Origin: Nitrosopumilaceae archaeon
GTDB lineage: Archaea > Thermoproteota > Nitrososphaeria > Nitrososphaerales > Nitrosopumilaceae
Assembly (NCBI GenBank): GCA_005798405.1
Contig: SYJQ01000046.1
Location: forward strand, 1 to 35,713
Length of the DNA: 35,713 nucleotides
Direction: 5' to 3'
Position 1 is the first letter of the stretch; the number at the start of each line of letters is the position of its first letter. Both the position numbers and the translations under genes were made by a program. The notes under the pieces are model-generated. The model had not been told where the DNA came from. It ran no database searches and saw only the letters and a list, made by a program, of their open reading frames with translations. Of this stretch, positions 25,703-28,206 are shown piece after piece.

Positions 25703-27097
25703 ATCCTGAATCAAATAACTACTACAAATCCAGCAACGGGTGAAGAGATTGGAAAATATTCATCAATGGACAAAGAGCAAGTATTCCAGTTAGTTGGAAA
25801 GGCAAAAAGAGCTTTTCCAGAATGGAAAAAAGATTATGAAAAGCGTAGGAGTTATGTATACAATTTAGTTGAATATTTAAAAAAGAACAAAATGGAATTG
25901 GCAAAAATTGCAACGTCTGAAATGGGAAAAGCAATCAAAGAGTCAATTGGTGAAGTTGAAAAATGTGCATGGGCCTTGGAGTTTTATGCAGATCATGGAG
26001 ACAGTTTTCTTTCTGATGAGGTATTAAACACAGATGCAAGAAAAAGTTTTCTTACTTTTGAACCACTTGGCGTAATCGGTTCAATCATGCCTTGGAATTT
26101 TCCTTATTGGCAAGCTCTAAGATTTGCTGCACCATGTTTAATGGCAGGAAATGTGATAGTAATGAAACCATCTAGAATTACCATGCAATCTGGAATAGAG
26201 ATTGAAAAGGCATTTACTGAATCAGGCATGCCAGATGGAATATTTCAGACGGTGGTTGGAAGTGTGGAATCTGCCAATCATCTCATAGATTCTGATGTTA
26301 ATGCAGTGACATTTACAGGCAGCACAGATGCAGGTGCTAAAGTAGGTGAAAGAGCTGCGAAGAATTTAAAGAAATGTGTTTTGGAGCTTGGAGGAAGTGA
26401 TCCATTTATTGTATTAGATGATGCAATTATTGAAAAAGCCGCAGAGGGAGCTGTTAAAGGCAGATTCATCAATTGCGGTCAAAGTTGTGTCGCATCAAAA
26501 AGATTCTTTGTTGGTAAAAATATTGCTAAAGATTTTATTGAATTATTTATCAAAAAAGCATCACAATTAAAAGTTGGAGATCCTACTTCGATTGAAACAG
26601 ATATTGGACCTTTATCAAGTAAAGGTGGTTTAGAAACCATTTCAGGAATTGTAGAAGATGCAAAAAAGAATGGTGCTGAAATTCTTTTAGGTGGTTCAGA
26701 GATGGATAGAAAGGGTTACTTTTATCAGCCCACGATTCTTACAAATGTTAAACCAAATATGAGAATTGCAAAAGAAGAGACATTTGGTCCAGTTGCTCCT
26801 ATAACAATAGTAGAAAACGAAAGTGAAGCTGTAAGACTAGCAAATGATACAGAATTTGGACTGGGGGCAAGTATTTGGACTAAAGATTTAGCAAAAGCTG
26901 AAAAAATATCCAGACGAATAGAATCTGGAATAGTTAGTGTCAATAATGTGGTAATTTCAGATCCAAGAATTCCATTTGGTGGAATAAAACACAGTGGGTT
27001 TGGAAGGGAATTATCAAGGTATGGAATTCTTGAATTTGTGAACATAAAATCAGTTAGATTCTATGACAATCTGAGTCATCATCACTACGTCGAATAA
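25703..27097 (+). CDS. Aldehyde dehydrogenase, succinate-semialdehyde-type (5' end probably frameshifted)
   Basis: The ALDH frame opens after TAA 25700 and reads NQITTTNPATGEEIGKYSSM before the first canonical start, ATG 25766. That NPATGE opening is conserved in the family, so ATG 25766 is too late. A GTG at 25695 with a well-spaced ggag (25685-25688) is in another frame (GTG GAT AAA TCC TGA). One extra A in the AAA run at 25701-25703 would join it to the ALDH frame as MDKILNQI. Diagnostic motifs: MPWNFPYWQ, FTGSTDAG, VLELGGSDPF (Glu general base) and FINCGQSC (catalytic Cys). It would oxidise a semialdehyde, probably succinate semialdehyde, with NAD(P). About 464 residues from 25703. Confidence 0.88.
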   Translation: MLNQITTTNPATGEEIGKYSSMDKEQVFQLVGKAKRAFPEWKKDYEKRRSYVYNLVEYLKKNKMELAKIATSEMGKAIKESIGEVEKCAWALEFYADHGDSFLSDEVLNTDARKSFLTFEPLGVIGSIMPWNFPYWQALRFAAPCLMAGNVIVMKPSRITMQSGIEIEKAFTESGMPDGIFQTVVGSVESANHLIDSDVNAVTFTGSTDAGAKVGERAAKNLKKCVLELGGSDPFIVLDDAIIEKAAEGAVKGRFINCGQSCVASKRFFVGKNIAKDFIELFIKKASQLKVGDPTSIETDIGPLSSKGGLETISGIVEDAKKNGAEILLGGSEMDRKGYFYQPTILTNVKPNMRIAKEETFGPVAPITIVENESEAVRLANDTEFGLGASIWTKDLAKAEKISRRIESGIVSVNNVVISDPRIPFGGIKHSGFGRELSRYGILEFVNIKSVRFYDNLSHHHYVE

Positions 27098-27127: not shown

Positions 27128-27135
27128 CTTAAGTA
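27128..27135 (+). promoter_or_regulatory. TATA-like box of the candidate ncRNA
   Basis: cttaagta is centred ~27 nt upstream of 27158, exactly where the closing helix of the predicted RNA begins. Confidence 0.45.
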
Positions 27136-27157
27136 TGATTTTTACGTATAGGTCTAC

Positions 27158-27271
27158 GGCGAGGACACTCATTTACAATAGGTTTTTGGGTGAAGATCAA
27201 TATGATCTTGGGAACGCCTTGAGCTTTGAGGTATAATCAAAGTTCATGATTCCCGTTGAATAGTCCTCGTC
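27158..27271 (+). ncRNA. Candidate structured ncRNA, ~114 nt
   Basis: A 9-bp closing helix pairs 27158-27166 (ggcgaggac) with 27263-27271 (gtcctcgtc), one pair being G-U. Inside it: a short helix 27167-27170/27188-27191; a perfect 6-bp hairpin 27193-27198/27204-27209 (aagatc/gatctt); 27210-27214 with 27250-27254 (gggaa/ttccc), enclosing an 8-bp hairpin 27222-27229/27237-27244 with loop ggtataa. Three G-U wobbles are pairs only if the plus strand is the RNA. A TATA-like box lies 27 nt upstream and a tttt run (27274-27277) follows. It sits between convergent genes; its last two bases touch the stop of the minus-strand gene. It has no T-loop (not a tRNA) and lacks 5S rRNA landmarks. Function unknown. 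Confidence 0.55.
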
Positions 27272-27539
27272 AGTTTTCATCATCAGCGTCATAATCACAT
27301 TCTTCTAATTCAATATGAGTTGGACTTCCATTATCATTAAAGTAAATTTCAACACAGATGTCAGACGCTAAAGTTGAGGCTAAAGTTTCAGCTAATTCCT
27401 TAGGAAAGTTATCCGATATGTTGGAAGTTGAGGAATATTTGTATTCAGTAAGTTCATCCTCATGATAGAAATCTATCTCAATATCCCCATTTGTGTATTT
27501 TCTGACTCCAACCACTTGACCAAATATACTATATGACAA
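27270..27539 (-). CDS. Small acidic hypothetical protein, 89 aa
   Basis: Unrecognised. It starts at TTG 27539, 2 nt after the hemerythrin stop, so it is likely co-transcribed. The sequence is soluble and beta-rich at first (IFGQVVGVRKYTNGDIEIDF), with a helical middle (FPKELAETLASTLAS) and a very acidic end (ELEECDYDADDEN). No membrane segment. A role together with the hemerythrin protein is possible from position only. Confidence 0.7.
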   Translation of the reverse strand: MSYSIFGQVVGVRKYTNGDIEIDFYHEDELTEYKYSSTSNISDNFPKELAETLASTLASDICVEIYFNDNGSPTHIELEECDYDADDEN

Positions 27540-27541
27540 AT

Positions 27542-28099
27542 TTAATTTCCATGTTGGGAAACATCTCGAGTTAGAGTTTCAGCTAATTGTTCATAATGCT
27601 CTCTGGTTTTTCCAGTTTCTTTTAGTTTCAATTCCTCAATTTCATTTAATTCTTTATCTACCTTCTTTGAAACATATTGTAAACGTGCTTCGGCCATCAT
27701 AAACAATCTATTATTTTCTTTCCACAAATGTTCTGTTATATGTTCTACATATTGTTGCATATCACTAATCAATTTTTTAGAATTACCAGATGTGATGTAA
27801 TCTTTAGCAGAATTTTCCATTTCTTTTCCAATTTCTCGTGAACGTTCATGATCCATCAACATCATTGCAATTGGACCCATATTACGTGGCATTCCTGCTT
27901 GTTCTAATGCAGGAAATAATGAATTCTCTTCTTTGCTATGATGACAAACATCAGTGAAATTCTTTGTAAAATCAATTACAGGTAACAATATAGATTCAGG
28001 AATTTGTTTTCCATCATTTAGAAGTTGAATTGTAGATTCCATTGCTTTGATGACTTTTTCTATTAGATCATGATCTCGTCTTAAAGATGCAGTCGACAT
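27542..28099 (-). CDS. Hemerythrin HHE-domain protein
   Basis: The 185-residue product starts at ATG 28099. It is an all-helical HHE cation-binding domain with the usual iron ligands: H10 in RRDHDLIEK, H54 and E58 in CHHSKEEN, H84 in MDHERSRE, and H120/H124 in VEHITEHLWKEN. A helical tail (130-185) follows. Members bind a di-iron site and sense or store O2, NO or iron. A minus-strand TATA-like element (aagatatag, about 28122-28131) lies ~28 nt upstream. Confidence 0.93.
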   Translation of the reverse strand: MSTASLRRDHDLIEKVIKAMESTIQLLNDGKQIPESILLPVIDFTKNFTDVCHHSKEENSLFPALEQAGMPRNMGPIAMMLMDHERSREIGKEMENSAKDYITSGNSKKLISDMQQYVEHITEHLWKENNRLFMMAEARLQYVSKKVDKELNEIEELKLKETGKTREHYEQLAETLTRDVSQHGN

Positions 28100-28206
28100 A
28101 ATAATTACAAATGAAATCTGATATCTATATCTTATTCAGATTTCCAGATAAATAATTAAAAGATAGGAAATTTGTTAACGAATTACTCGTTAACAATTTT
28201 GTGTTT

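Follow-up and report, generated by a model that had tools for sequence, protein, structure and literature searches.

A conserved structured RNA gene with a putative promoter of its own in Nitrosopumilaceae

Here, we describe what is, judging from the comparison of related genomes, almost certainly a conserved, structured and independently promoted RNA gene in Nitrosopumilaceae. It was identified in contig SYJQ01000046.1 of a Nitrosopumilaceae archaeon, analyzed as one stretch of 35,713 nucleotides (the window), and lies between two convergent genes, as a preliminary description of the site had reported; these are an aldehyde dehydrogenase (ALDH) gene on the plus strand and an 89-aa open reading frame (ORF) on the minus strand. 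The central proposal of that description, an independent structured RNA gene, is supported by conservation, by covariation, by a promoter-type box at a fixed distance and by the joint decay of box and fold. Coordinates of all features are collected in Table 1.

Table 1. Positions of the RNA, its helices and the flanking features in the window
Feature	Position	Strand	Remark
Structured RNA	27158-27271	+	z = -5.5; covariance-model matches in 23 genomes; covariation
P1 closing helix, 5' strand	27158-27166	+	Partner 27263-27271; kept in 96% of cells
P1 closing helix, 3' strand	27263-27271	+	Last two bases within stop codon of the convergent ORF
P2 arm (variable)	27167-27191	+	Helix 27167-27171/27187-27191
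P3 hairpin (variable arm)	27193-27209	+	Fold and model-fitted alignment
P4/P5 arm	27210-27254	+	Most conserved module; 5x3 internal loop; proposed protein-binding site
Archaeal TATA-type box TTAAGTAT	27129-27136	+	First T 29 nt before first P1 base
T4 run 3' of RNA	27274-27277	+	Seen in sequence; possible termination site
ALDH gene upstream (Pfam Aldedh)	25766-27097	+	Ancestral neighbour
Convergent 89-aa ORF, TTG start	27270-27539	-	No Pfam match; occurs also where the RNA is absent

Predicted fold

The closing helix P1 consists of nine base pairs, one of them G-U (27159-27270), and P4 pairs 27210-27214 with 27250-27254, both exactly as first described. The other helices were likewise found at the proposed sites, two of them longer than claimed: P2 has one pair more, and the P5 hairpin comprises 10 bp (27220-27229/27237-27246) rather than 8 bp, with an isolated C27218-G27248 pair in addition. 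The P3 hairpin has 7 bp and a 3-nt loop in the minimum free energy (MFE) structure.

The RNA folds considerably better than shuffled sequence, as had been anticipated (MFE -43.1 kcal/mol, compared with an average of -25.1 after shuffling; z = -5.5; 0 of 200 shuffled sequences as good), and the minus strand folds worse than the plus strand (-34.2 versus -43.1). When the whole window was scanned coarsely for folding, the best frame overlapping the RNA ranked fifth among 1250; therefore, the RNA is not singled out by energy alone, and it is conservation that singles it out. Values of z between -3.2 and -5.7 were obtained for four Nitrosarchaeum relatives, and all five copies fold closely alike. 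Three further copies (L043, L047 and L050), taken alone, gave modest values only (-1.8 to -2.7).

Distribution in Nitrosopumilaceae

By the names of its close relatives, the present genome belongs to Nitrosarchaeum. The same intergenic RNA was recovered by nucleotide search in four other Nitrosarchaeum genomes (81-87% identity). A covariance model built from these five copies (R1) was run on 250 Nitrosopumilaceae genomes and matched 24, including 19 outside Nitrosarchaeum, where full-length matches had E-values down to ~1e-24. A second model (R2) also recovered G213 and the two copies of G055, and strengthened a weak match in G212. With R3, a core model covering the P4/P5 arm, the scores were sharply bimodal: true copies reached 53 bits or more, and everything else 25 bits or less. 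The intact copies number 24 in 23 Nitrosopumilaceae genomes: five among the 18 Nitrosarchaeum genomes, 15 in genus g12, those of G019 and G055 (two copies) in genus g3, and that of G030 in genus g14. One of the g12 genomes with a copy, G148, is presumably that of N. maritimus SCM1; its copy lies at about 1,468,829-1,468,950.

Outside Nitrosopumilaceae, order- and class-wide searches yielded only weak matches, and every member found lies within this one taxonomic family. The five weak matches that were read (L052 and L090-L093) have no such box as described below and seem to be chance matches. Judging by its ALDH and gene order, L012 belongs with Nitrosarchaeum, and its record title, Nitrososphaeraceae archaeon SCK_bin.6, is probably wrong.

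Covariation and conserved anatomy

Compensatory base changes in relatives were found in both model-fitted and structure-blind alignments, in agreement with the fold initially proposed. The model-fitted alignment, which leans towards structure, showed two-sided changes in 21 of 41 pairs (5 of 6 in P2), with 93.8% of cells paired. When full-length type A sequences were aligned with MAFFT, blind to structure, 97.1% of cells were paired and five pairs had two-sided changes, a number reached by 11 of 500 shuffles, whereas the covariation score was reached by none of 500; for the core arm (19 sequences, including divergent ones, likewise blind to structure) two-sided changes were present in 9 of 15 pairs, a number reached by 0 of 500 shuffles, and because such shuffle tests ignore kinship, we count them as support jointly with distant members such as L053, in which P1 is re-paired as TGCGAGG/CCTCGCA. 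Thus, the covariation evidence persists in structure-blind alignments, but it is smaller than in the model-fitted one. Sliding the partner columns by 1-3 positions lowered the paired cells to ~28-63%. Many pairs are invariant across the alignments.

Members have in common P1 and the P4/P5 arm with its UAY-containing terminal loop. The most conserved part is the asymmetric 5x3 internal loop of this arm, in which C[GU]CC[UG] lies opposite UG[AC]. On the other hand, P2 and P3 are swapped for a single hairpin in L045, L046, L050 and L053. In the g3 copies L046 (1501-1622) and L050 (1501-1622), the replacing hairpin carries a AAUCGCCUCCCC loop, which L053 lacks; this loop is similar to the anti-Shine-Dalgarno sequence in the 3' tail of 16S rRNA.

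Promoter and 3' end

The TATA-like box that had been noticed upstream of the RNA is present, and is best placed at 27129-27136, 29 nt before P1, instead of at 27128-27135 and ~27 nt. In all 24 intact copies, a TTAAGTAT box with at most one mismatch starts 28-29 nt before P1; matches of this grade in that position range occur in ~0.3% of random window frames. The fixed distance of the box in several genomic contexts, together with its loss along with the fold in dead copies, supports the suggestion that the RNA has its own promoter. An archaeal TATA box at such a distance directs initiation to the first paired base or its immediate neighbour. Therefore, transcription would be expected to start near 27158, and a ~115-nt transcript is predicted.

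The proposal of a terminator fared less well. The T4 run is present, but a role in termination is doubtful: no terminator was detected 3' of the RNA by a scan that covers archaeal termination poorly, and the T-run is not conserved outside Nitrosarchaeum, being absent from Nitrosopumilus-type copies.

Genomic context, loss and decay

Nineteen intact copies, including the one described here, and three decayed copies are located ~41-61 nt downstream of the ALDH gene. Five intact copies (L043, L045, L046, L050 and L053) have no ALDH gene upstream and nevertheless keep the box, its spacing, P1 and P4/P5. L043 has lost its ALDH neighbour; the remaining four occupy unrelated loci, three of them among genes for universal stress proteins or multicopper oxidases. 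The copies at unrelated loci and the presence of two copies in one genome argue for independence from the neighbouring genes. Three non-ALDH copies (L095, L096 and L097) have universal stress protein genes nearby; L097, and probably L095 as well, adjoins a multicopper oxidase gene.

Other Nitrosarchaeum genomes have clean empty sites, where the gene order is unchanged, the RNA is missing and the intergenic gap is short. In L048, L049 and L051, degenerate copies still occupy the ALDH locus, which shows the gene in the course of being lost. Their TTAAGTAT boxes are lost or altered, and in L049 and L051 box and fold have been lost jointly, the sequences folding no better than shuffled ones (z of -0.7 and -0.4; L048 was outside the folded set). 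Presence and absence of the RNA are interleaved on the ALDH tree. This pattern is consistent with an ancestral gene that was lost repeatedly, although branch support is too low for counting events. The RNA gene is old and accessory in Nitrosopumilaceae.

A second element was observed in the same region. A perfect inverted repeat, GTTAACGA-N5-TCGTTAAC, is present at 28173-28194, upstream of a hemerythrin ORF (27542-28099, minus strand), and most of it is conserved in other Nitrosarchaeum as well as in the SCM1-like genome. A stretch of 116 nt around it gave z = -4.8 on the plus strand, and the repeat could serve as an operator or terminate the 82-aa gene.

Comparison with known RNA classes

The RNA matched no known class, as the preliminary description had supposed: 0 of the Rfam 15 families scored above the gathering threshold in the window, and relaxing the search to E <= 10 produced three chance matches only (at most 17.1 bits). 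It had also been stated that landmarks of tRNA and 5S rRNA are absent, and there was indeed no ARAGORN call of a tRNA or tmRNA and no match of the 5S rRNA model at the locus. 5S rRNA (RF00001) resembles the RNA in its length (~115-120 nt), its ~9-bp helix closing the ends and its multi-branched form, but differs in that the RNA here has no model match and the 5S gene sits elsewhere in this genome (G000); a 5S gene was also located elsewhere in G148. Genes for SRP and RNase P RNA are likewise present elsewhere in G000, and neither model matched at the RNA locus. The SRP and archaeal RNase P models of Rfam found nothing in the complete genome G148, though they match in its relatives.

Several other classes were considered and rejected. 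Alignments read by eye argued against a kink-turn (L7Ae), as the nucleotides following the bulge, C and U/G, face A/C and G, and against box C/D or H/ACA guides, as no conserved ACA or box C/D pair was seen. A riboswitch or mRNA leader, which would lie upstream of a co-directional gene, was dismissed because the gene that follows the RNA runs towards it here and in the majority of copies. Y RNAs and other Ro60-binding RNAs are small, with paired ends and an asymmetric conserved loop as the likely protein site. The present RNA resembles them in its paired ends and conserved asymmetric loop, but no TROVE/Ro protein was found alongside it in 10 genomes tested, seven of which have the RNA. Small RNAs of Haloferax and Methanosarcina are intergenic with their own promoters and act mostly by base pairing, with little conserved structure; the present RNA is alike in being intergenic with its own promoter, but is compact and covarying.

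An orphan structured noncoding RNA of archaea has been reported from metatranscriptomics, namely Tan1 of Thalassoarchaea (PMC5069720). Like the present RNA, it is structured, belongs to a planktonic lineage and has no assigned function, but by its description it is set apart from the present RNA by its length of 229 nt and its origin in marine group II Euryarchaeota (PMC5069720). No matching description of small RNAs from Nitrosopumilus or other thaumarchaea was found in the literature searched, which covered few subscription papers, so an earlier mention is possible. The RNA family looks previously uncatalogued.

Proposed function and alternative explanations

Taken together, we consider it probable that the locus is an independent gene for a small noncoding RNA that acts in trans as a protein-bound ribonucleoprotein (RNP), although this mechanism is our best guess and much less certain than the RNA gene. 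TBP and TFB would bind the TTAAGTAT box and transcription would begin at 27158 or no more than one or two bases away; the resulting transcript of ~115 nt may fold as a four-way junction in which the 9-bp P1 helix holds the two ends together. The conserved P4/P5 internal loop might then serve as the recognition site for a protein partner, while the replaceable P2 and P3 arms might tune or target the RNA. The RNP would act in trans and not as part of a neighbouring mRNA, and its gene would be ancestral to several genera of Nitrosopumilaceae, non-essential and repeatedly lost. An invariant arm combined with exchangeable arms is what would be expected of a protein-binding RNA scaffold; the site of conservation is the one reason for proposing such a role. 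It should be noted that most copies are found in the ALDH neighbourhood, so that a cis role could be played there, which counts against the trans reading.

Four alternatives were weighed. It is unlikely that the RNA is a base-pairing regulator whose variable arms target mRNAs directly, with no dedicated protein. The P2/P3 loops do differ between lineages, and the AAUCGCCUCCCC loop of two g3 members is like the 16S 3' tail; however, conservation falls on an internal loop within a closed arm and not on an open seed, and the variable arms have no seed-like conservation. We also regard as improbable an antisense RNA controlling the convergent 89-aa ORF or the hemerythrin operon via overlapping transcript ends. 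The stop codon of this ORF overlaps P1 here, and in Nitrosopumilus-type copies the ORF overlaps the RNA by as much as 34 nt on the opposite strand, but no such partner accompanies the copies at other loci, the ORF is conserved in genomes without the RNA, and selection is seen on the internal pairing of the RNA.

The 19 intact copies lying ~41-61 nt past the ALDH stop could suggest a structured 3'-UTR or a termination/processing element of the ALDH mRNA. This appears very unlikely: the strongest argument against it, and for an independent gene, is the box at a fixed distance at unrelated loci, and the five copies without upstream ALDH keep P1 and the P4/P5 fold as well. Moreover, the ALDH genes of other Nitrosarchaeum manage without the RNA, termination needs no multi-branched covarying fold, and there would be no use for a conserved box 29 nt upstream of the RNA. 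Finally, a small mobile element with P1 as its inverted ends, or a remnant of one, would agree with the inverted-repeat ends, the clean presence or absence at one site and the two copies of G055, but is highly improbable given a single copy in nearly every genome, a site shared across genera, internal covariation and no match in the plasmids, phages and viral contigs searched. Pattern matches in viral contigs lacked the box and scored at most 20 bits, and a viral origin was rejected.

If the trans-acting RNP is the correct reading, it might represent an RNP specific to the lineage of ammonia-oxidizing archaea, with an invariant protein-binding arm and interchangeable effector arms, and thereby an undescribed regulatory or catalytic class in archaea; we regard this extension as speculative and rather doubtful. 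Ammonia-oxidizing archaea are among the most abundant microbes of ocean and soil. Our results provide a concrete RNA family in these organisms that is backed by covariation and spans several genera. One copy lies in a genome that appears to be that of the reference strain N. maritimus SCM1, so that existing RNA-seq data can be used at once to look for expression of the RNA, and a partner may be searched for biochemically.
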